From Alphaproteobacteria bacterium (GTDB lineage Bacteria; Pseudomonadota; Alphaproteobacteria; Micropepsales; Micropepsaceae), in the NCBI GenBank assembly GCA_003139615.1, contig PLJH01000041.1, forward strand, positions 33,575 through 68,422: a stretch of DNA of 34,848 nt, in the 5' to 3' direction. Positions 7,072 to 34,848 of this stretch are shown here, one piece after another. The position numbers and the translations under genes were made by a program. Numbering within the stretch: the first letter of the stretch is position 1; every line of letters starts with the position of its first letter. The notes beneath the pieces are model-generated. The model searched no databases. It worked only from the letters and a program-made list of their open reading frames with translations, and was not told where the DNA came from.

Positions 7072-8310
7072 ATGGCAGAAGCATTGATCATCGACGCGTG
7101 CCGGACGCCGCGCGGCATCGGCAAAGTCGGCAAAGGCGCACTCGCCGATATCCACCCGCAGCAATTGGCGGCATCCGTTCTGAAGGCGATGGCGAAGCGC
7201 AACGACCTCAACACCGCCGAAGTCGACGACATCATCTGGGGAACGTCGAGCCAGCGCGGCAAACAGGGCGCGGACCTCGGCCGTATGGCGGCTCTCGATG
7301 CCGGTTATGACGTCAAGGCGAGTGGCGTCACACTGGATCGTTTCTGCGGCTCGGGCATCACCACGGTGAATATGGCGGCGGCGTCCATTATGTCCGGCAT
7401 GGAAGATCTTGTGATCGCGGGCGGCACGGAGATGATGTCCTACACCTCCTCCACCGCCGATCCGAAATCACCGCCGATGATGGATGGCGGCAATCTGCGT
7501 TTGCGAGCGCGTCATCCGCAATCGCATCAGGGCGTTTGCGCCGATGCCATCGCAACCATGGAAGGCATTTCGCGGCGCGCGACGGACGAACTGGCGCTTG
7601 TCAGCCAGCAGCGCGCCGACGCCGCCATCAAGGGCCGGCATTTCGACAAGAGCCTCGTCGCCGTTCACAGGGAAGACGGAACGCTTGCGCTCGACCGCGA
7701 AGAATTCCCCCCTCCGCAGACCACGCTCGAAGGTCTTTCGGCGCTCAAGGCATCATTCGAGGTGATTGCCGAAGTGCCTCTCGACGAAAAGGGTACGACC
7801 TATGGCGGGTTGATCCGGCAGGTCTATCCCGACCTCAAGATCACGTACATTCATCATGCGGGCAATTCGTCCGGCGTGGTGGATGGCGCAGGCGCCGTTC
7901 TGCTCGCTTCGCCCGAATATGCGAAGAAGCACGGCCTCAAGCCGCGCGCGCGCGTGGTCGCGATGGCGAATATGGGCGACAGTCCGACCCTGATGCTGAA
8001 CGCGCCCGTGCCGGCCGCCCGCAAGGTGCTGGAGAAGGCTGGACTGACGCTCGACGATATCGACCTGTTCGAGATCAACGAGGCGTTCGCCGTGGTTGCC
8101 GAGAAATTCATCCGCGATCTGAAGCTCGATCGCGAAAAGGTGAATGTGAATGGCGGCGCGATGGCGCTCGGTCATCCGATCGGCGCCACGGGATCGATCC
8201 TCATCGGGACGATCCTGGACGAACTCGAGCGGCGCGATCTGAAGCGCGGGCTTGTCACCATGTGCGCGGCAGGCGGCATGGCGCCCGCAATCATCATCGA
8301 GCGCATCTGA
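7072..8310 (+). CDS. Acetyl-CoA acetyltransferase (thiolase)
   Basis: A 412-residue thiolase, the usual length. The nucleophilic Cys is Cys92 in RFCGSGITTVN, His368 is in GGAMALGHPIGATGS, and Cys398 is in MCAAGGMAP, so all catalytic residues are present; INEAFAV near residue 335 is the other signature loop. It condenses or cleaves acyl-CoA with CoA, as in beta-oxidation or acetoacetyl-CoA formation. The chain-length preference cannot be read. The ATG has a good ribosome site (GGGAG at 7060-7064). The sulfatase starts 18 bases after its stop, so the two are probably one transcript. Confidence 0.93.
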   Translation: MAEALIIDACRTPRGIGKVGKGALADIHPQQLAASVLKAMAKRNDLNTAEVDDIIWGTSSQRGKQGADLGRMAALDAGYDVKASGVTLDRFCGSGITTVNMAAASIMSGMEDLVIAGGTEMMSYTSSTADPKSPPMMDGGNLRLRARHPQSHQGVCADAIATMEGISRRATDELALVSQQRADAAIKGRHFDKSLVAVHREDGTLALDREEFPPPQTTLEGLSALKASFEVIAEVPLDEKGTTYGGLIRQVYPDLKITYIHHAGNSSGVVDGAGAVLLASPEYAKKHGLKPRARVVAMANMGDSPTLMLNAPVPAARKVLEKAGLTLDDIDLFEINEAFAVVAEKFIRDLKLDREKVNVNGGAMALGHPIGATGSILIGTILDELERRDLKRGLVTMCAAGGMAPAIIIERI

Positions 8311-8328
8311 CCGAATAACGCTGCCGCG

Positions 8329-9609
8329 ATGGCGAGACCACCGAACTTTATTGTGATCCTCGCCGACGATCTCGGCTATGGCGATCTGGGCTGCGACGGC
8401 GGGCGTATCATCCGCACGCCGTCGCTCGACCGGATGGCACGCGAAGGCGTGCGGTTCACGGATTTCTATGCATCCGCGAATGTCTGCACACCGTCACGCG
8501 CCGGTTTGCTGACGGGCCGCTATGCGATCCGCAGCGGCCTCGCGCATGAAGTGATCCAACCTTCGGATACGATCGGCCTGCCGGTATCTGAAGTGACGAT
8601 CCCGAAAGCGTTGAAGCCTGTCTATGCATCCGCGTTAATCGGCAAATGGCATCTGGGCCATGTCGCGCCGCACTGGCCGCCGACGGTCTTCGGCTTCGAT
8701 CGGTTTCGTGGCCTGCCCTACAGCCATGATATGCGCCCGATCGCGCTCTATGAGGCTGAAGGCGAGCATATTGCCATAAGCGAATCCCGCGTCGATTTCC
8801 CAACGCTGACGCAACGGTTCTTTGCAGAAACGTTTGCCTTCGCAGAGGCCAATCGCGAGCAACCCTTCTTCATCCTGCTCGCGCTGACCGCACCTCATGT
8901 TCCACTGCGGCCCAACCCGGCGTCGCTGTCGAATTCGCCGGCGGGCGATTACGGCGAAGTCGTCGAAGAGATCGATCGCAACGTCGGCGCGCTTCTCACG
9001 CGCTTGGGCGAACTCGGACTGGAGCAAGACACGCTTGTGATGTTCACGTCCGACAATGGGCCATGGTTTGAAGGTTCAAGCGGCCCGTTCCGAGACCGCA
9101 AAGGCGGATCCGGTTGGGACGGCGGCTTCCGTGTGCCGTTGATCCTGCGCCAGCCCGGACGCATCCCGGCCGGCGTTGTCACGTCTGCGCTCGCCGGCAA
9201 TCTCGATCTGCTTCCGACACTGACCGCGATGGCCGGGCTTCCCCTCCCCGAGACCGAACTGGATGGTCGCGACCTGAGTGCCGTCATCTTCGAGAACGCG
9301 CCTTCGCCGCACGAAGAGATTATTCTCTTCGACAACACCCATATTGCGGCAATCAGAACCGCGCGCTGGAAATATGTCGTGCGCTCCTACTACCGCAAAT
9401 ATGACGTCTCGCTTGCATCCTTCGGCTATCCGCTGCTGTTCGATCTCGAGCAGGATCCCGGTGAGAACTACAGTGTTGTGAGCCGCCACTCCGATATTGC
9501 AAATGAAATGAAAGAGCGCGTGGAACGCGCACGCGCGAAATACGAACCTCTCGCAAAGGCATTCCCGCCTTACATCCCGCCGCCCGGCGCCGAGAATCAT
9601 CCGGATTGA
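8329..9609 (+). CDS. Sulfatase (arylsulfatase-like, Cys-type)
   Basis: A 426-residue sulfatase of the alkaline-phosphatase superfamily. Cys53 in NVCTPSRAGLLTGR is the site converted to formylglycine (CxPSR motif). Metal-binding Asp13 and Asp14 are in ILADDLGYGD, and GKWHLG and FTSDNGPW provide further active-site residues. It should hydrolyse sulfate esters, with the exact ester unknown. There is no signal peptide, so it appears cytosolic, which is unusual for a degradative sulfatase. The ribosome site is weak and the gene is probably translated from the thiolase transcript. It needs a formylglycine-generating enzyme; the SUMF1-domain protein at 13873-14793 does not look like one. Confidence 0.92.
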   Translation: MARPPNFIVILADDLGYGDLGCDGGRIIRTPSLDRMAREGVRFTDFYASANVCTPSRAGLLTGRYAIRSGLAHEVIQPSDTIGLPVSEVTIPKALKPVYASALIGKWHLGHVAPHWPPTVFGFDRFRGLPYSHDMRPIALYEAEGEHIAISESRVDFPTLTQRFFAETFAFAEANREQPFFILLALTAPHVPLRPNPASLSNSPAGDYGEVVEEIDRNVGALLTRLGELGLEQDTLVMFTSDNGPWFEGSSGPFRDRKGGSGWDGGFRVPLILRQPGRIPAGVVTSALAGNLDLLPTLTAMAGLPLPETELDGRDLSAVIFENAPSPHEEIILFDNTHIAAIRTARWKYVVRSYYRKYDVSLASFGYPLLFDLEQDPGENYSVVSRHSDIANEMKERVERARAKYEPLAKAFPPYIPPPGAENHPD

Positions 9610-9680
9610 ATCGGATGTGATCCAAATTGCGCCATCACGCGTAAAGATCATCCGTGGGCATATCTTCGAAGCCATCGGCC

Positions 9681-10187
9681 ATGCAGAAAATCGTCGTCGT
9701 CCACGACAAGATGCAACAAGGATATCGCTACGCTCGCGTGGCGCTGTCGGGCAAATCCTTCGATGTGGCGTTCGCGCCTGACCTGACGCCGAAGGAGATG
9801 CTCGAACTGGGCGTGTTCGGCGGCAAATATATGACGGACTGTCGGTCGGAATTTCCTGCAAGTTGGTTCACACATGCCAAGCTGTCGCCCGTCAAACGAA
9901 ACCCGCGTCTAAATTTTTTCGGCGTCGATGCCAGCCAGCCCCTCGCCGAATGGCGCAGGAAGGGCTGGATTCACGATGACGACCCACGCGGCTGGTTCCA
10001 ATGGTATTGCCGCTATTACATGGGCCGCCGCATGCCGGACGAAGACCGGCGGCAGATCGGCCGTTGGAAAGCAATGAAGCGCCACATCGCGCAGATAAAG
10101 GCCAATTGCGATCCCGGCAACATCCTTTGCCGCCCGCGTCAGCGGCAAGCCCTGCTCCACTGGGCCTATGACAGCCGGAAGTTCTGA
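9681..10187 (+). CDS. Conserved-looking hypothetical protein, 168 aa
   Basis: I do not recognise the family. The protein is soluble-looking, with a folded N-terminus (QKIVVVHDKM), a middle part with FAPDLTPKEMLELGVFGG, then a segment rich in Trp, Tyr and Arg (GWFQWYCRYYMGRRMPDEDR) and a basic C-terminus. No signal peptide or membrane segment is seen. The start is uncertain: the ATG at 9681 begins the first strand-like segment, while a GTG at 9654 would add nine residues. It follows the sulfatase on the same strand after 71 bases. The absence of low-complexity sequence and the balanced composition support a real gene. Confidence 0.65.
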   Translation: MQKIVVVHDKMQQGYRYARVALSGKSFDVAFAPDLTPKEMLELGVFGGKYMTDCRSEFPASWFTHAKLSPVKRNPRLNFFGVDASQPLAEWRRKGWIHDDDPRGWFQWYCRYYMGRRMPDEDRRQIGRWKAMKRHIAQIKANCDPGNILCRPRQRQALLHWAYDSRKF

Positions 10188-10212
10188 CGGCTGGTTCGCG
10201 TGGATATATACG

Positions 10213-10250
10213 AAGGTAACCTTTGTAGTTTGCCTTAGCATCTGCTAGGC
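10213..10250. promoter_or_regulatory. Inverted repeats in the marR-like leader, candidate operator
   Basis: AAGGT-A-ACCTT at 10213-10223 is a perfect inverted repeat, and CCTTAGC-ATCT-GCTAGG at 10233-10249 is a near-perfect one, both within 45 bases of the MarR-type regulator start. MarR proteins commonly bind such sites in their own promoters. Autoregulation is inferred. Confidence 0.35.
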
Positions 10251-10257
10251 TTCGAAA

Positions 10258-10710
10258 ATGAAGACGCAGAAAAGCGATTTCGATGCCGCGAAAGCATTGG
10301 CCTTGGCGGTGGAACTTCACGTTTTGGCAGGCAAGCTGAAACGGCGGTTGCGCGAACAGGGAAATCCCGGCGACTTGACGCCGTCTCAAACCTCCGTGCT
10401 TCGCCATCTGGAGCGCGAAGGCCCGGCGACGGTGACGTATCTGGCGCGCGCCGAAGGTGTGCGACCGCAGTCGCTGGGTGCCACCGTTTCCGTGCTCGAG
10501 GCGGCAGGACTCATTAGCGGAGAAGCGGATCCCGGCGACGGACGGCAAACCATTTTGTCGCTCACGCCCGCCTGTCGGAAAATGATCAAAGCAGGACGTG
10601 CGGCACGCGAGGATTGGCTGTTCCGCGCCATCCGCTCGAAGTTCACATCCGCCGAGCAGGAAGAGCTTGCGAAAGGCGTGCAATTGCTCAGGCGCCTCGT
10701 CGATGCATAG
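10258..10710 (+). CDS. MarR family transcriptional regulator
   Basis: A 150-residue winged-helix protein. LTPSQTSVLRHLEREGPATV (about residues 40-59) is the start of the MarR helix-turn-helix. The recognition helix region is YLARAEGVRPQSLGATVSVL, and the wing follows with DPGDGRQTILSLTPACRKMI. MarR dimers usually repress nearby genes and release DNA when a small phenolic or other ligand binds. The gene leads a same-strand operon with an isochorismatase-fold hydrolase, a membrane protein and an MFS exporter. There is no strong ribosome site, but symmetric sequences lie just upstream. Confidence 0.9.
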   Translation: MKTQKSDFDAAKALALAVELHVLAGKLKRRLREQGNPGDLTPSQTSVLRHLEREGPATVTYLARAEGVRPQSLGATVSVLEAAGLISGEADPGDGRQTILSLTPACRKMIKAGRAAREDWLFRAIRSKFTSAEQEELAKGVQLLRRLVDA

Positions 10711-26962: not shown

Positions 26963-28207
26963 TTGACCCGCGAATTTCGATTGTCAGCGCCCGGCACCGG
27001 GCGCGGCGTGTCGTGCGACGCAAACGGCGCCTTTATCGGCGCTATATCGCTTTTGCAGCGAACCAGCATGCATGGCGAAGAGCGATGGGAGCCGCGCCAC
27101 TGCGAGGATCTCTCGAAACAGCTTGGTTTGGAATTTGATCTTCCCATCGACATGTCGTCGAAGACGGGCGGTCTGAAGGCGATCTGCAACGCGCTCAACG
27201 AAGGCGATGTTGCGCGCGCGCAAATCGCCACCGTGCTGCTGGGCATTCCCGAGCCGCCGACGCTTTCCAATGGTGTGCACACGCGCGACGAAATGATGAA
27301 ATTCATCCGCGATCTTCATTGGAGCCGAATGATCGCGTGGAACGACGAGGGTCCAACCTTGCCGTCGCCGACCGAACCAGAGAATTCGGCCCTGCGCAAA
27401 AGCGAAGCTGTTCTGGCCAAAGCCGGCTACAATTCCGATGAGCCGCGCGATGAACGCGGACGGTGGACGAGTGACGGCGGCTGGAGCGCCGCGCCGGGCA
27501 CGGAAAATCGCAACCCGCGCACACAACTTGCAGACGCCGGTATGAGCGATGCCGACAACGATCCTGTCGTGGAAGCAGTCCGCGTTGCCGCACGGCAAAA
27601 TTCGGCTTCGCGAGAAACCGCGTCCTCGCGCGCTCATCCACCAGTGCATCCGAATGTGGTGGACTTCATACGGCAGAACCACGCCGCTGCGCAGCGTCTT
27701 GCAAATCAAATTCCCGGCGTAACGCCCGAGATGATGCTTGCCGCCATGGGGCGCGAGTGTCATTTCGGTGCTGACTGGAAAGCAGTGCAATACGGAAACT
27801 ATGGCGGAGTTCACTTCGCCGACTGGTATACCGATGCGAACGGCAAGCACATACCGGTCAATCAAGGGCAACGCGGCAATAAACCGTTCCTACCCGGTCA
27901 GACCGGAATCTTTTGGACGGCAGGTCGCCCTTCTCCGAGCAATCCCAATGTTCGGGTGAAGCGCCAGGAAATGGCATCTTTCCCCTTGGATCAGGGATTC
28001 GAATTATCGGGGCAAATCGCAATAAACGAAATCAGGCCGTACGTTCCGCAGGGAGGCATTCAGAGTCCGGAAATGTTCTTCGAACTTCTTCACGAACACG
28101 GATACGGCGTGGGGAATCCCACATACGTGCGAGACACGCTTCTGCTGGGGCCGCCAAAATGGGGCCCTTATTGGCTCGTGCTGGCTGCGTCAAATGCGGA
28201 GGAGTAG
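26963..28207 (+). CDS. Modular protein with PRDERGRWT linker and possible lysozyme-like C-terminus; candidate effector
   Basis: A 414-residue protein. An in-frame stop at 26954-26956 forces the start to be close, and a TTG at 26963 is the best choice. Residues about 1-125 form a first module (FDLPIDMSSKTGGLKAICNA, GDVARAQIATVLLGIPEPP). I recall similar N-termini in rhizobial proteins with variable C-termini. Residues 158-171 are a linker, DEPRDERGRWTSDG. Residues about 225-410 are the C-terminal module: ITPE-like GVTPEMMLAAMGRECHFG with Glu265 recalls the catalytic Glu region of glucosaminidase/lysozyme-like enzymes, followed by FFELLHEHGYGVGNPTYVRD. There is no signal peptide. The next gene, an exported small protein, overlaps by 14 bases. 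A secreted cell-wall-degrading effector is an inference. Confidence 0.6.
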   Translation: MTREFRLSAPGTGRGVSCDANGAFIGAISLLQRTSMHGEERWEPRHCEDLSKQLGLEFDLPIDMSSKTGGLKAICNALNEGDVARAQIATVLLGIPEPPTLSNGVHTRDEMMKFIRDLHWSRMIAWNDEGPTLPSPTEPENSALRKSEAVLAKAGYNSDEPRDERGRWTSDGGWSAAPGTENRNPRTQLADAGMSDADNDPVVEAVRVAARQNSASRETASSRAHPPVHPNVVDFIRQNHAAAQRLANQIPGVTPEMMLAAMGRECHFGADWKAVQYGNYGGVHFADWYTDANGKHIPVNQGQRGNKPFLPGQTGIFWTAGRPSPSNPNVRVKRQEMASFPLDQGFELSGQIAINEIRPYVPQGGIQSPEMFFELLHEHGYGVGNPTYVRDTLLLGPPKWGPYWLVLAASNAEE

Positions 28208-28682
28208 CCCTATTTTCACGAAATGGAGTCATTCTTTTCTGCCGATCGCCATCATGCTGGCGCTGATTGGCGAGGCGCCGGCGTCTCCAGCGGTCAAACC
28301 ACTGGTGGCCCTTGGAGAGGCTGAACATCTCGTCATGGCTGAGTTGATTCATGAGCATCGGAGCAAGTTGCCTGGGCTGGTCCTGTCGAGCAGCCCCGAC
28401 CGATATCTTCCTTCGTTCTGGGTTATATCCGTCGACTGGGACGAAAGGGTCAACGGCGAGCAATATGGAACCGGCCATTATGGATACTATGCCGTCGACA
28501 AAATGACCGGCGATGTCGGGAGCGCGATAAGCTGCCAAGACTATCATTCTCGGGAGCTGGCACGGGCGCAGGGGCAATTGCGCCGGCGGCTCCGAATGAG
28601 CGCGCGAGATTACAAGATACTTCGCCGTGATGGGCCGTATTGTGGCTGCACGGAGCCTCCTGTGCTTGGGCCCTGTCCCTAG
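28194..28682 (+). CDS. Exported protein, paralogue A (candidate immunity protein)
   Basis: A 162-residue protein with a signal peptide (SFLPIAIMLALIGEAPAS). The mature part contains GEAEHLV, a helix with LIHEHRSKLPGLV, YGTGHYGYYAVDKMTGDV, then SCQDYHSRELARAQGQLRRR and a Cys-rich end (YCGCTEPP, GPCP). It matches the protein at 28997-29491 along its length. No known family is recognised. The ATG at 28194 lies inside the last codons of the candidate effector gene; the GGAGGAG at 28198-28204 is downstream of that ATG, so the true start may be a later non-ATG codon. Direct overlap with the effector-like gene suggests a functional pair. Confidence 0.7.
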   Translation: MRRSSPIFTKWSHSFLPIAIMLALIGEAPASPAVKPLVALGEAEHLVMAELIHEHRSKLPGLVLSSSPDRYLPSFWVISVDWDERVNGEQYGTGHYGYYAVDKMTGDVGSAISCQDYHSRELARAQGQLRRRLRMSARDYKILRRDGPYCGCTEPPVLGPCP

Positions 28683-28974: not shown

Positions 28975-28996
28975 AAACTTCACGACGGAATGCTTG

Positions 28997-29491
28997 ATGA
29001 CCTTACAACACCCAAACCCTATGCGTGCAATATCGGCTCATTTTCTCGTGGCGGTGGCGATCATGTCGGCGCTGATCGGCGAGGCGGCAGCTTCTCCGGT
29101 CGTCGGACCACTCGTGGGTATCGGAGAGGCTGAACACCTCGTCAAGGCTGAGATGATTCATGAGCACAGGAACAAGTTGCCGGGCCTGGTCATATCTTCG
29201 GAACCGCGCCAGGACCCAAATATGCCTTCGTTCTGGATTATATCTGCCGATTGGAACGGAATCGACGACGTGGGAACAGGCGGGCACTATGGATATTTTG
29301 CCGTCGACAAGATGACCGGCGATGTCTGGTTCGCAACAAGCTGCGGCGCCTATCATTCTCCGGAACTGGCGCGCGCGCAGGGGCAATTGCGCCGGCGGCT
29401 CGGAATGAGCGCGCAAGATTACAAAAGACTTCGCCATGATGGGCCATTCTGCGGCTGCAAGGAGCCTCCTGCGCTACCGCCCTGTCCTTAG
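28997..29491 (+). CDS. Exported protein, paralogue B (candidate immunity protein)
   Basis: A 164-residue paralogue of the protein at 28194. Shared blocks include GEAEHLV, MIHEHRNKLPGLV, GHYGYFAVDKMTGDV, ELARAQGQLRRRLGMSAQDY and the end CGCKEPPALPPCP. Nucleotide identity is also long in places (for example gcgcaggggcaattgcgccg in both), which means the duplication is recent. A signal peptide lies at about residues 10-35 (FLVAVAIMSALIGEAAAS). ATG 28997 is used; an internal ATG at 29021 gives a shorter signal peptide, and a TTG lies at 28994. Duplicated immunity genes after a toxin gene are common in antibacterial effector loci, but no direct evidence of immunity is present. Confidence 0.72.
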   Translation: MTLQHPNPMRAISAHFLVAVAIMSALIGEAAASPVVGPLVGIGEAEHLVKAEMIHEHRNKLPGLVISSEPRQDPNMPSFWIISADWNGIDDVGTGGHYGYFAVDKMTGDVWFATSCGAYHSPELARAQGQLRRRLGMSAQDYKRLRHDGPFCGCKEPPALPPCP

Positions 29492-30349: not shown

Positions 30350-30428
30350 CTAAGCGTCCCTAAAATATGTCTCCGCCGTTGAGCTGACAAGTCCTACGAT
30401 GGTCTCAACTGTTCAAGAGGCTTCAAGC

Positions 30429-31124
30429 ATGCCGGAACGCCGCGCAGAAAGACACCATACGGGAAAAGCCGGATGGCTGCGCGCAGCGGTATTGGGAGCA
30501 AACGACGGCATCCTGTCGACAGCCAGTCTGGTGCTGGGTGTCGCCGCGGCACATGGAAGTCGGAGCAGTTTGCTTATAGCCGGAGTCGCCGGTTTGGTCG
30601 CGGGGGCTATGTCGATGGCCGCAGGCGAGTACGTTTCGGTTCACTCCCAGGCCGACACCGAGCAGGCCGATCTCAAGCTTGAGCGCAAAGAACTCCGAAC
30701 CGACGACAAGGGCGAGCACCGGGAACTCGCTGCGATCTACGTCGGCCGTGGTCTCGAACCCGCTCTCGCCAAACAAGTCGCCGAACAGCTCATGGCTCAT
30801 GACGCTCTCGGTGCGCATGCACGCGACGAACTCGGCATCACGGAAACTCTGCGTGCCCGTCCGATCCAGGCTGCACTGGCGTCGGCCGTCAGCTTTTCCG
30901 TAGGGGCGGCTGTGCCGCTCTCTGCGACCGCGATTTCTCCTCAGGCGAGCGTCATCGTCTTTGTTTCTGCGACTTCACTGGTTTGTTTGGCCGGTCTGGG
31001 GGCGCTGGCGGCGCAGGCGGGCGGGGCGAGCCTGGTGAAGGGCGCAATACGCGTCGCATTCTGGGGTACCCTGGCGATGGCCGTAACCGCAGGCGCAGGC
31101 GCCTTATTCGGGGCACTTCTTTGA
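30429..31124 (+). CDS. VIT1/CCC1 family Fe2+/Mn2+ transporter
   Basis: A 231-residue membrane protein. LRAAVLGANDGILSTASLVL is the first signature with the conserved GANDGILST. A second membrane segment includes VAGAMSMAAGEYVSVHSQAD, the AGEYVSVxSQ motif. A cytosolic, Glu-rich metal-sensing stretch (EQADLKLERKELRTDDKGEH) comes next, then three more hydrophobic segments near the C-terminus. VIT/CCC1 proteins move Fe2+ or Mn2+, usually out of the cytosol. I chose the ATG at 30429 because AAGAGG lies eight bases upstream; the ATG at 30399 has no site. It lies before the HiPIP/cytochrome genes, on the same strand, but with a minus-strand gene in between. Confidence 0.9.
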   Translation: MPERRAERHHTGKAGWLRAAVLGANDGILSTASLVLGVAAAHGSRSSLLIAGVAGLVAGAMSMAAGEYVSVHSQADTEQADLKLERKELRTDDKGEHRELAAIYVGRGLEPALAKQVAEQLMAHDALGAHARDELGITETLRARPIQAALASAVSFSVGAAVPLSATAISPQASVIVFVSATSLVCLAGLGALAAQAGGASLVKGAIRVAFWGTLAMAVTAGAGALFGALL

Positions 31125-31282: not shown

Positions 31283-31795
31283 CTACCAGGTGCAACCGTA
31301 AACCGTGCAATGCGGCGAAGGCATTCCTGAATTCGCATTCGGCTGCGCCGGGGTCGACGGCCTACCAGCTTTGGTGGGCGCGGATACGCTCACAATGCGC
31401 GCTTGCATATGTTCCGCAATGTCCTGTGCGTCGACGATTCCGGTTGCACGCGGATTAATGTCGCCCGCGCGATAGACATTGATCGTCACGTTCACCCCGG
31501 GTCGTATCAATTCATTGCCGCTGCGGTCCGATCCAACGCTATCCGCGCCCATAATCCGGAAATAGCGGAAGCCGTGATCGAGCGTCATCGCTGCCGCTTT
31601 GACGAGGACGATCTGCGTCGCATCGTTTGGATTAAATCCGGAGGTCTCTCGACCTGAGATCACGGCTGTACGATCGGTCAGCATGGGCGGCGCTGCATGC
31701 ATGCATGCCGTCAGCAACAACCCGCACAGCGCCACGGTCGCTGCGCCGGCGCTGCGGGCCTCGAAATGGATTTCACAGGACCTTCGCATCTGCAT
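31283..31795 (-). CDS. Small lipoprotein (resembles CC0125/CC1285 family)
   Basis: A 170-residue lipoprotein with lipobox LLTAC near residue 31 (ALCGLLLTACMHAAPP). The middle contains SGRETSGFNPNDATQIVLVK, then AAAMTLDHGFRYFRIMG, a pattern of a helix with A-x-T-L followed by a strand F-x-I, seen in the CC0125/CC1285 type lipoproteins of alphaproteobacteria; this is a tentative match. The C-terminus ends in HCTVYGCTW. The ATG at 31793-31795 has GAGGGA about five bases upstream. It is opposite in direction to the HiPIP cluster, and its start faces that cluster's promoter. The function is unknown. Confidence 0.65.
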   Translation of the reverse strand: MQMRRSCEIHFEARSAGAATVALCGLLLTACMHAAPPMLTDRTAVISGRETSGFNPNDATQIVLVKAAAMTLDHGFRYFRIMGADSVGSDRSGNELIRPGVNVTINVYRAGDINPRATGIVDAQDIAEHMQARIVSVSAPTKAGRPSTPAQPNANSGMPSPHCTVYGCTW

Positions 31796-31945: not shown

Positions 31946-31961
31946 CTTGATCTGAATCAAG
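31946..31961. promoter_or_regulatory. FNR/FixK-type box
   Basis: CTTGATCTGAATCAAG contains TTGAT-CTGA-ATCAA (31947-31960), a perfect match to the FNR/FixK/Anr consensus TTGAT-N4-ATCAA, with one further symmetric base on each side. It ends 105 bases before the HiPIP ATG and starts 151 bases from the lipoprotein start on the other strand. Proteins of the Crp/Fnr superfamily that bind this site activate genes in low oxygen. Because the box is symmetric it could serve either direction; the HiPIP/cytochrome operon is the more likely target. Confidence 0.8.
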
Positions 31962-32065: not shown

Positions 32066-32344
32066 ATGTCCGAATGCAGGAAATCCAACGAAGTTTCGCG
32101 TCGCAGTCTTCTAAAGAACGCGACGATGATGGCGGGCGGCGCCGCGGCACTTGCCGCAACTATTGCGGCGACTCCCGCAGAGGCAGACAAAATGTCCCAG
32201 AAAGGGGCTCTGTATCAGGACGCCCCGAAGAACGGGCAGCAGTGCGATGGATGCGCACTTTTCAAGGCGCCCGCTTCCTGCACGATCGTAGACGGCACCA
32301 TCAGTCCCACCGGCTGGTGCAGATTCTTTTCGAAGAAAAGCTGA
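32066..32344 (+). CDS. High-potential iron-sulfur protein (HiPIP)
   Basis: A 92-residue periplasmic electron carrier. Residues 11-40 form a Tat signal (SRRSLLKNATMMAGGAAALA, then AEA), as expected for a cofactor-loaded protein. Four Cys hold one [4Fe-4S] cluster: Cys60 and Cys63 (QQCDGCALF), Cys72 (ASCTIV) and Cys85 (TGWCRFF), the standard HiPIP spacing. HiPIPs pass electrons to reaction centres or terminal oxidases. In Acidithiobacillus a HiPIP called Iro has been proposed as a carrier in iron oxidation. The ATG at 32066 has AGGGGAAG upstream. It is the first gene after the FNR/FixK-type box, with the Cyc2-like gene 55 bases downstream. Confidence 0.93.
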   Translation: MSECRKSNEVSRRSLLKNATMMAGGAAALAATIAATPAEADKMSQKGALYQDAPKNGQQCDGCALFKAPASCTIVDGTISPTGWCRFFSKKS

Positions 32345-32399
32345 AGTCTACGACCGTTCGGGCGGCCCGTTGGTCATTGAATTACTAGGGGAAATTGCC

Positions 32400-33776
32400 A
32401 TGTCGCATCGTCCAGGGCGCGCGCAGTGGTTGTTGCGTATTTTCTTTGGCCTTTTTGCATTCGTTCTGACGGGCCTTCCTCAATCGGCTCTCGCGGTGCC
32501 CAGTTTCGCCCGGCAAACCGGACTTGCCTGCGAGGCCTGTCATACCGTTTTTCCACAGCTCACGCCGTTCGGCCGCGTGTTCAAGGCAAGCGGTTATACG
32601 CTGTTCAACACGCAGAAGGTCGAGGACATCGACAGGACAAAGCAGAGTACGCTTTCCTTGAGCGATCTGCCGCCGATTTCGGCCATGATTATTGCCGGAA
32701 CCAGCTCTGTCGCCAAAGCCAACGACGCCGACTCGAGCAAAGTGTCCACGGACTTCCCGCAACAGGCGAGCTTGTTCTACGCGGGGCGCATCTCGGACAA
32801 TATCGGCGCTTATTTTCAGTTGACCTATGACGATCAGAGCGGGTCTATCGGGATCGACAACACCGATATCCGCTTCGCGGATGTCGCGAATGTCGACGGT
32901 CACAATGTGATCTACGGCGTCAGCCTGAACAACAATCCCACGGTTCAGGATCTCTGGAACAGCACGCCCGCCTGGGGCCAGCCCTTCATCAGCGCTCCGT
33001 CCATGCAGACACCCGCCATTCCGGGAGCCCAGATCGAAGGCGCGATGGCACAGATCGTCGCCGGACTGTCCGCATATACGTTTATCGACAATTCGCTTTA
33101 CGTCGAGGCCGGCGTCTATCGTTCCGCATTGCAAGGACAGTCGGTCGCCAACAACGGCAATACGACCAACAATATCATTTCCGGCGTCGCGCCCTATTGG
33201 CGCGCGGCCTATGAGTGGGATTGGGGCAAGAACTCCTGGGAATTCGGCACGTTCGGCATCTCAGCCGCGCTCGAGAACCCGACCACGCCTGCGGGAAACG
33301 CCATCAACAACTCGCTGCAGAGTGCGCCGACGGATCGGTTCCTCGATGCGGGGCTGGATTCGCAATATCAGTTCATCGACGACGAAACGCAGATTTCCAT
33401 CGATGCGCGGTGGACGCACGAGAACCAGAATCTCGATGCGAGCTATGTTGCGGGTTTCGCATCGAACAAGAGCGATCGATTCGACAGCGCAAATCTGATA
33501 GCCGGCTATTACTGGCACCGCAAATTGGGCGCGAGCCTTGGTTTCTTTGCCGTCAGCGGTTCGAATGACCCGCTCTATCTCGGGACCGCGTCCGGTAATT
33601 CCAACAGCAGTTGGGGGACTGCGGAGATCGACTATCTCCCCTGGCTCAACGTGAAACTCGGGCTGCAATACACCGCCTACATGCGATTCGACGGCGCGTC
33701 TTCGGACTATGACGGCGCCGGGCGAAATGCCTCCGACAACAATCTGCTCTACGCCTATCTGTGGCTCGCGTTCTGA
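32400..33776 (+). CDS. Fused mono-heme cytochrome c / outer-membrane barrel (Cyc2-like)
   Basis: A 458-residue protein. Residues 1-32 form a signal peptide ending ALA. The N-terminal block VPSFARQTGLACEACHTVFP, then LTPFGRVFKASGY, has a single heme c site CEACH (44-48). The remaining 390 residues contain alternating polar/hydrophobic strands, many aromatic and Asn-rich turns, and end in NLLYAYLWLAF, a C-terminal Phe signature of outer-membrane barrels. A one-heme cytochrome fused to a porin is the architecture of Cyc2, the outer-membrane Fe(II) oxidase of Acidithiobacillus and Mariprofundus, of similar size. Related proteins of unknown role also exist, so Fe(II) oxidation is inferred. The ATG at 32400 has AGGGGA nearby. 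It is downstream of HiPIP and upstream of cytochrome c4. Confidence 0.8.
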   Translation: MSHRPGRAQWLLRIFFGLFAFVLTGLPQSALAVPSFARQTGLACEACHTVFPQLTPFGRVFKASGYTLFNTQKVEDIDRTKQSTLSLSDLPPISAMIIAGTSSVAKANDADSSKVSTDFPQQASLFYAGRISDNIGAYFQLTYDDQSGSIGIDNTDIRFADVANVDGHNVIYGVSLNNNPTVQDLWNSTPAWGQPFISAPSMQTPAIPGAQIEGAMAQIVAGLSAYTFIDNSLYVEAGVYRSALQGQSVANNGNTTNNIISGVAPYWRAAYEWDWGKNSWEFGTFGISAALENPTTPAGNAINNSLQSAPTDRFLDAGLDSQYQFIDDETQISIDARWTHENQNLDASYVAGFASNKSDRFDSANLIAGYYWHRKLGASLGFFAVSGSNDPLYLGTASGNSNSSWGTAEIDYLPWLNVKLGLQYTAYMRFDGASSDYDGAGRNASDNNLLYAYLWLAF

Positions 33777-33798
33777 ATTCGCGAAGGAAAAGACGTCC

Positions 33799-34410
33799 AT
33801 GAAGCTTAGATTGGTCGCGATCCTCGTCGCCGGCGCGTGCCTCGCCGCTTCCTTGGCATTTGCGGAAGACAATGCCGCCGGGAGGGCCGCGGAAGCCAAA
33901 GCCACGACGACCTGCCAGGATTGCCATGGCCCGAAGGGCGATAGCACAGTGGCGACGTTTCCGCGGCTGAACGGCCAGCAAGCCGATTACATCGCGGCCC
34001 AGCTCAAGAATTTTCGCGATCACAGCCGTTCGGACCCACATGCCCAGGCCTATATGTGGGGCATGGCCTCGCAACTCGACGATTCGATCATTACCGAACT
34101 TGGAAAATATTATGGCGGCCAAACACCGACGCCGCCGCAAAGCGGCGGCGCGCTCGCCGCGGAGGGCAAAAAGCTCTATCTGAGCGGCGCTCCCGCGCAG
34201 AACGTGCCCGCCTGTGCGACCTGTCACGGCGCGCACGCCGAGGGCAACAGCATCATGCCGCGGCTGGCGGGTCAGCATGCCGACTATCTGAAGAAACAGC
34301 TCGAGGCGTTCCGCTCGACCCTGCGCGAAAACGACATCATGCACGCCAACACCAAGGACATGACCGACAGCCAGATCGAGGCGCTCGTCTCCTATCTCGC
34401 CAACGATTGA
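33799..34410 (+). CDS. Di-heme cytochrome c4
   Basis: A 203-residue exported protein with signal peptide (1-22, AFA-ED). Two CxxCH sites lie in two similar halves: CQDCH (39-43) with YMWGMA providing the likely Met ligand, and CATCH (139-143) with a Met near 181 or 188. PRLNGQQADYIAAQLKNFR and PRLAGQHADYLKKQLEAFR are the repeated halves of cytochrome c4. In several bacteria c4 transfers electrons from a periplasmic donor to a cbb3 or other oxidase. The ATG at 33799 follows AAGGA. It starts 22 bases after the Cyc2-like gene, so they form one operon. Confidence 0.92.
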   Translation: MKLRLVAILVAGACLAASLAFAEDNAAGRAAEAKATTTCQDCHGPKGDSTVATFPRLNGQQADYIAAQLKNFRDHSRSDPHAQAYMWGMASQLDDSIITELGKYYGGQTPTPPQSGGALAAEGKKLYLSGAPAQNVPACATCHGAHAEGNSIMPRLAGQHADYLKKQLEAFRSTLRENDIMHANTKDMTDSQIEALVSYLAND

Positions 34411-34648: not shown

Positions 34649-34848
34649 ATGAAAGCTGCGAAGAAAAAGCCTCTGTTCGACCCCAAGGTGTTTCTCTCGA
34701 AGATCAACGGTGGCCGAACCGTATCCGAGTACCGGAAAAACCAGCGTGTCTATCGCCAGGGCGATCCTGCGGATTCGGTTTTCTACATTCAGACAGGGAA
34801 AGTGAAGGTCACTGTCATCTCGCCACAGGGCAAGGAAGCGGTGGTGGC
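34649..34848 (+). CDS. Crp/Fnr family transcriptional regulator, N-terminal part (runs off window)
   Basis: The first 66 codons are visible. YRKNQRVYRQGDPADSVFYI and TGKVKVTVISPQGKEAVV form the start of a cyclic-nucleotide-binding-fold sensor domain, close to a group common in Rhizobiales. There is no cluster of N-terminal Cys, so it is not an oxygen-sensing FNR with a [4Fe-4S] centre, and the DNA-binding domain lies outside the window. GGGAAGTGAAGG precedes the ATG. Located after the electron-transfer operon, it could regulate it, but that it recognises the TTGAT-N4-ATCAA box cannot be shown here. Confidence 0.9.
   Translation, partial: MKAAKKKPLFDPKVFLSKINGGRTVSEYRKNQRVYRQGDPADSVFYIQTGKVKVTVISPQGKEAVV

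Follow-up and report, generated by a model that had tools for sequence, protein, structure and literature searches.

The window analysed here is a stretch of 34,848 bp, positions 33575-68422 of contig C50 (PLJH01000041.1) in the draft genome of an alphaproteobacterium of the family Micropepsaceae (G000), and its right end is the end of the contig. Near that end lie three consecutive plus-strand genes, which encode a high-potential iron-sulfur protein (HiPIP, 32066-32344), a Cyc2-type protein with an N-terminal monoheme domain and a presumed outer-membrane barrel (32400-33776), and a di-heme cytochrome c4 (33799-34410). The original prediction had read these genes as an operon for extracellular electron uptake. 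Their coordinates and contents are as it gave them, and with gaps of 55 bp (HiPIP to Cyc2-type gene) and 22 bp (Cyc2-type gene to c4) they form one operon-like run, in which each of the three ATG codons is preceded by a purine-rich run read from the sequence. The G+C content at third codon positions is 0.67 for the HiPIP gene, 0.73 for the Cyc2-type gene and 0.76 for the c4 gene. Scans of the window for tRNAs and Rfam families gave no match, and those for sigma-70 promoters and terminators gave values inside the spread of shuffled sequences.

The product of the middle gene (ATG at 32400, stop at 33776) is 458 residues long, has its single CXXCH, CEACH, at residues 44-48 (32529-32543) and ends in phenylalanine, so the single N-terminal heme c site and the terminal phenylalanine of the original prediction are present. 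The published Cyc2 signature consists of AxPxFAR[Q/K][T/Y], a CXXCH near the N-terminus, PxL at +4 and a length of at least 365 residues, and the definition also includes a signal peptide and a 16-stranded outer-membrane barrel (PMC8406198; this and the other papers are cited from excerpts). The signature of the window protein is placed at 32493-32543: AVPSFARQT (32493-32519) matches the first element strictly, PQL begins four residues past CEACH, fitting PxL, and the length is above the minimum, which bears out the Cyc2-like identity. A signal peptide was read by eye as a hydrophobic stretch with ALA ahead of VPSF. The protein matched no family in Pfam or NCBIfam, and sequence searches of solved structures gave no relative (best E values 0.12 and 1.3); the outer-membrane barrel is presumed, from the motif and the family. 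Foldseek, run on a model of low confidence, returned 106 matches at E values up to 10, of which none was at or below 0.001, and counts neither way. Strand-like periodicity (alignment mean) was found in 0.53 of the scanned segments of the Cyc2-type protein versus 0.41-0.48 in four soluble proteins, 0.26 in c4 and 0.48 in OmpF, a difference too weak to count.

The HiPIP (ATG at 32066, stop at 32344) has 92 residues, a twin-arginine motif, SRRSLL, and four cysteines for a [4Fe-4S] cluster. The twin arginines and the cysteines (C60, C63, C72 and C85) are identical in all 16 HiPIPs aligned, and the protein scores 22.8 bits against PF01355, barely above the cut-off of 22; the claim of a HiPIP with a twin-arginine signal is thus upheld. 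Its closest solved structure is that of PioC (E 1.9e-10), the HiPIP of phototrophic Fe(II) oxidation, followed by the HiPIP of 1isu (2.7e-5). Among NCBIfam models the best match is NF041615 ("iron oxidase", Iro), which runs along the length of the HiPIP with 74.3 bits. This is under the cut-off of 100 bits, so the protein is not filed as Iro; the cut-off was reached in none of the 96 genomes of the host order. A second HiPIP gene of the genome lies on contig C97, and no Cyc2-type gene was found within the 3.3 kb examined around it.

The third product (ATG at 33799, stop at 34410) has 203 residues and two CXXCH sites, CQDCH at 33913-33927 and CATCH at 34213-34227. Its closest solved structure is cytochrome c-552 of 1h1o (E 3.8e-36), which we take to be the c4 (Cyc1) of A. 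ferrooxidans, from the Acidithiobacillus cyc2 operon. Four of its 10 solved matches are named c4 or, for the top one, cytochrome c-552, and both heme domains are covered, in agreement with the di-heme c4 that had been claimed.

Relatives of the Cyc2-type protein were sought in several samples. The host order was represented by one family with seven genera and 96 genomes, 36 of which, host included, hold a relative at E up to 1e-5; the host genus may be Rhizomicrobium, a guess from the make-up of this order. Wider searches, which used a 24-row profile, matched 42 of 398 genomes of a phylum sample at 1e-20 (24 of the 42 are of family f39, where the match covers about the first third only), 13 of 385 genomes of a class sample at 1e-40 and 45 of 250 genomes of the order of G433 at 1e-40. 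Nine plasmid records matched as well. Family f39 may be Zetaproteobacteria, which is a guess from its small genomes and tandem copies. Module make-up was counted within 1.5 kb of the Cyc2-type gene, with loci truncated at contig ends, such as L008 and L011, counted as they are. The 30 loci of the host order comprise five with HiPIP, c4 and the lipoprotein described below (host included), seven with HiPIP alone, five with c4 alone and 13 with none; two of the c4-alone loci, L015 and L022, have short c4 matches only, and these may be mono-heme. In the phylum sample outside the order and f39, three of 17 loci have HiPIP, four c4 and 10 none. The class loci (nine, one of which, L102, belongs to the host genus) include three with c4 and six with none, while those of the G433 order, taken from the best 30 of 49 matches, three of them seen before, include 14 with c4 and 13 with none (27 loci). 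One of six named plasmid loci has HiPIP with c4, two have c4 and three none; in f39 11 of 12 loci have none and one (L068) is without a Cyc2 call. By these counts c4 is the common partner and HiPIP a partner in some lineages, and both together beside a Cyc2-type gene are rare (6 of 89 loci outside f39).

Chance neighbourhood was rejected, because the gene set recurs in other loci. In Caballeronia sp. SBC1 the HiPIP, Cyc2-type and c4 genes stand in the same order as in the window; its c4 is 43% identical to that of the window, and its HiPIP is distant (29% identical) and encoded about 0.7-0.8 kb upstream of cyc2. In Acidiphilium cryptum a c-type cytochrome gene comes after the Cyc2-type gene. 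Two of the five full modules of the host order, L006 and L007, have HiPIP and cyc2 in divergent orientation, which leaves the one-strand gene order of the window in three of the five. Two loci of the same genus, L003 with a full module (7543-10578) and L078 with c4 and Cyc2 only, reversed (7783-9900), have flanking genes in common, among them ftsK, amt and a dapC-like gene to one side and etfBA-like genes to the opposite side. The same chromosomal place thus carries differing versions of the module, a pattern that fits replacement or repeated insertion. Some further arrangements were seen among the relatives. Two tandem HiPIP genes precede the Cyc2-type gene in L096 (6107-6685) and L047 (2957-3537), of family f2 in the same class, and on a plasmid of Methylocystis sp. 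MJC1 (L035, 6663-8642) three consecutive c4-type genes follow it. A plasmid of Acidithiobacillus ferrooxidans YQ-N3 (L039, CP084173.1) carries a Cyc2-type gene that is identical in coordinates, neighbours and scores to the one of Acidiphilium cryptum pACRY03 (L033, NC_009469.1), for which transfer and mixed culture are both possible.

A tree of 59 proteins was built, with a midpoint root; seven of the 12 f39 loci were used, and L008 was dropped as too short. The window protein groups with four Cyc2-like proteins of the same genus that have the same full gene set (support 100/100), inside a large group that also includes the proteins of Acidiphilium and Caballeronia. Close to the window's own group (85/71) are the four longer c4-type proteins of the genus, L009-L012. 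In addition, 20 members of the order, with Polymorphobacter and L043, make up a separate group of 22 (100/100), and the f39 proteins are distant, on a long branch. A tree with the known Cyc2 clusters had been suggested as a check of the identity. Ours does not refute it and joins the protein to the large Acidiphilium and Caballeronia group; placement among the named clusters is outside its scope. As a separate observation, these 20 members (L013-L032), out of 29 Cyc2-type proteins of the order that were examined, are without the signature arginine, carry a two-residue insert of the GGFGPQLTPFGR type and have PxL at +6, and a screen with the published motif would therefore miss them. Six of these have a HiPIP gene within 1.5 kb and several have an FNR/FixK box.

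Two features of the locus were not part of the original prediction. One is a perfect FNR/FixK-type box, TTGATCTGAATCAA, at 31947-31960 (no strand assigned), 105 bp ahead of the HiPIP start codon. It is the one perfect site in the window, where 0.02 would be expected (0.42 for the looser FixK form TTGA-N6-TCAA), and since the box was first noticed by eye this expectation alone proves little. In the relatives, the 300 bp upstream of the cyc2 or HiPIP profile match were scanned for TTGAT-N4-ATCAA with at most one mismatch, together with 19 re-ordered control motifs, each of which occurred in at most one locus per set. The site was present in 12 of the 30 loci of the host order, with 13 sites inside the scanned region and four outside, the region being 7.6% of the bases, and in 9 of the 17 phylum-sample loci outside the order and f39. 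Among the 36 loci fetched after this first scan it was present in eight (class 2/9, order of G433 6/27). Binomial p values, in which kinship is ignored, are 4.8e-12 for the order, 1.8e-8 for the phylum sample, 0.005 for the class and 9.1e-6 for the G433 order. The exact form TTGA-N6-TCAA was found in 13/30, 9/17, 2/9 and 6/27 loci of these sets, respectively, and in 0/11 of f39.

The other feature is a gene for a predicted lipoprotein of 170 residues (31283-31795, minus strand), which is divergent from the operon and which surfaced in the neighbourhood comparison as a further gene common to the relatives. The protein has a lipobox-like cysteine (the L074 row of the alignment is without a clean start) and belongs to no known family, with no match in Pfam or NCBIfam. 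Matches with E below 1e-50 were found in five of the 96 genomes of the order (G000, G022, G032, G060 and G071), always beside the full module, and weaker ones, near 1e-14, in two more (G007 and G044). In a search of 289 genomes of the class at 1e-8 no matches arose beyond those of the window itself. G022 carries two copies, 13 kb apart, each with an internal stop. In G052 the HiPIP and Cyc2 genes stand at a contig end, where the module is cut (L008), and no lipoprotein match was obtained. The lipoprotein is linked to the full module, and as the five full-module genomes are kin, this linkage does not represent five independent events.

Among known systems the closest parallels are with Cyc2 of the Acidithiobacillus rus operon and Mariprofundus Cyc2PV-1, which likewise have one CXXCH, AxPxFAR[Q/K][T/Y], PxL and more than 365 residues. 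In the rus operon the Cyc2 gene is followed by a c4 gene (PMC10654088), as it is directly here, and in Ferrovum a c-type cytochrome gene also comes after cyc2 (PMC10879576). The window differs from the rus operon in the HiPIP gene in front, the linked lipoprotein and the FNR/FixK box, and rusticyanin, cup and cox genes are absent from the stretch, which ends 438 bp past c4. The pioABC operon of Rhodopseudomonas palustris TIE-1 resembles the window in belonging to an alphaproteobacterium, in electron entry at the outer membrane (presumed here), in a PioC-type HiPIP and in FixK boxes in front; however, PioAB is a decaheme cytochrome in a porin, whereas here one heme sits on one protein and c4 is added. 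Of the two FixK boxes in front of pioABC, FixK of R. palustris binds the proximal one, and a mutant in fixK is impaired in iron oxidation (PMC3050613). RegA binds upstream of the rus operon in A. ferrooxidans (PMC5506826). The Cyc2 genes of Acetobacteraceae also neighbour a c-type cytochrome gene, mono- or di-heme there, and HiPIP occurs in some of the genomes, but in the excerpted account it is not placed in one operon with Cyc2 and c4 (PMC10715153). Iro and HiPIP-41 of Ferrovum are further HiPIPs in an iron-oxidiser context; the window HiPIP differs from Iro in lying under the Iro model cut-off, and the role of HiPIP-41 is called unknown in the excerpted source. No description of a HiPIP-Cyc2-c4 operon, or of FNR/FixK control of Cyc2, was found in the parts of the literature that were read, nor any paper on Rhizomicrobium with Cyc2 in the literature searched, which is weak evidence of absence since most subscription papers were outside it and others were represented by excerpts.

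As to possible electron sinks, CtaD of an aa3 oxidase scores above its model cut-off in the genome, as does CyoB of a bo3 quinol oxidase, which is fused to a CyoC-like part below its own cut-off. No match to the RuBisCO large subunit was obtained in the draft genome, the one genome searched. We consider it fairly probable that the module is a Cyc2-type Fe(II) oxidase which, at low oxygen, feeds HiPIP, c4 and the aa3 oxidase of a host whose draft genome gave no RuBisCO match. The Cyc2-type protein would sit in the outer membrane, where its single heme would take an electron from dissolved Fe(II), and the periplasmic HiPIP and di-heme c4 would carry the electron on to the aa3 cytochrome c oxidase. 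A regulator of the FNR/FixK family, acting on the box at 31947, may activate the operon at low oxygen, a condition in which Fe(II) would persist while some oxygen would remain for the oxidase. Since there is no RuBisCO match, the electrons would probably contribute to energy or redox balance in a heterotroph and not support autotrophic growth. The linked lipoprotein would be a fourth component, plausibly a holder or an assembly factor at the membrane, although this role is a guess. Electron uptake, as originally proposed, is likely, judged from homology.

A number of results weigh against Fe(II) uptake under FNR/FixK control. Fe(II) as donor and the inward direction are themselves drawn from homology. 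AlphaFold models of the Cyc2-type protein had a mean predicted local distance difference test score (pLDDT) of 26 and 29, from alignments of two sequences (the window protein and L003) and three (plus P0005 from L089), which are too few. Three scans of viral contigs had yielded this one usable protein; L089 and L091 are one contig, and L092, at 22%, was left out. In a manual strand count, based on a hydrophobicity scale modified for aromatics, the protein could not be told apart from soluble controls, and the tree holds no named Cyc2 cluster reference. HiPIP stood beside the Cyc2-type gene in none of the 36 later loci, so it is not a general partner of Cyc2. On the side of regulation, the box was found in 0 of 11 loci of f39 and in one of six named plasmid loci, where it is not enriched; 28 of the 36 later loci are without it, and L003, with its full module, has none within one mismatch. 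The Fnr model gave three weak matches on the genome, none above the cut-off. Expression of pio is higher in the R. palustris fixK mutant under other conditions (PMC3050613), which implies that control through such a box need not be simple activation. Finally, the draft genome (4.65 Mb) is in 142 contigs and 96.7% complete, so that absences of genes from it are not final.

The principal alternative is flow in the opposite direction, in which at low oxygen or under anoxia c4 or HiPIP and the Cyc2-type protein would discharge respiratory electrons to Fe(III) or another outside acceptor. The box fits anaerobic use, but the closest solved HiPIP comes from a path of Fe(II) oxidation, as presumably does the closest c4. 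Furthermore, although a path of Fe(III) reduction has been ascribed to Cyc2 and Cyc1 isoforms of acidithiobacilli (PMC10715153), the potentials of known HiPIPs of this type are high, about +450 mV for PioC (PMC10879576), which favours flow to oxygen, and we regard the reverse direction as unlikely. A role in detoxification or homeostasis, where surface oxidation of Fe(II) or another metal at low oxygen would exclude the metal with little energy gain, could be argued from the VIT-family transporter gene, which adjoins two of the five full modules within the stretches examined, and from the lack of a RuBisCO match. However, the adjacent periplasmic carriers and the aa3 oxidase of the genome suggest use of the electrons, and this makes such a role improbable to us.

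It is also conceivable that the donor is not iron, in which case the Cyc2 signature would not equal Fe(II). Distant Cyc2 homologues may have other functions (PMC8406198), and relatives occur in 42 of 398 genomes of the phylum sample and 45 of 250 of the G433 order, but the partners and the switch site of the window resemble those of known Fe(II) systems and we hold a non-iron donor to be very improbable. Oxidation of Fe(II) with inward flow is the reading we keep.

A broader proposal can be offered tentatively, and we would sooner doubt than assert it: Cyc2-type modules of many Alpha- and Betaproteobacteria may be low-oxygen respiratory auxiliaries switched by FNR/FixK, and the module of the host genus may have gained a dedicated HiPIP and the new lipoprotein, giving a four-part electron-uptake unit for which no description was found. 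Many bacteria with Cyc2 homologues are not known as iron oxidisers, and what the homologues do there is described as open (PMC8406198). The FNR/FixK-type site before a good part of the Cyc2 loci points to low oxygen as the condition to examine. The host genus, with its module, its lipoprotein and no RuBisCO match in one genome, offers a direct way to ask whether Cyc2 serves heterotrophs as a side electron source, which, if true, would extend microbial iron oxidation beyond its known range.

The remaining features of the window are neighbours of the module. The VIT-family transporter gene (PF01988) lies at 30399-31124 on the plus strand, and the module of G071 is the other one that it adjoins; its place next to the module also counts in favour of the Fe(II)-uptake reading. 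The start of a Crp/Fnr-type gene (34649-34848, plus strand), which encodes the first 66 residues with a cyclic-nucleotide-binding domain, is cut by the contig end. It was considered as a conserved part of the module and rejected, because no relative of the gene was present in the other loci compared. Further upstream, two similar small, probably exported proteins of 162 and 165 residues are encoded on the plus strand at 28194-28682 and 28994-29491; the first has no Pfam match, and the pair is apparently a tandem duplication.

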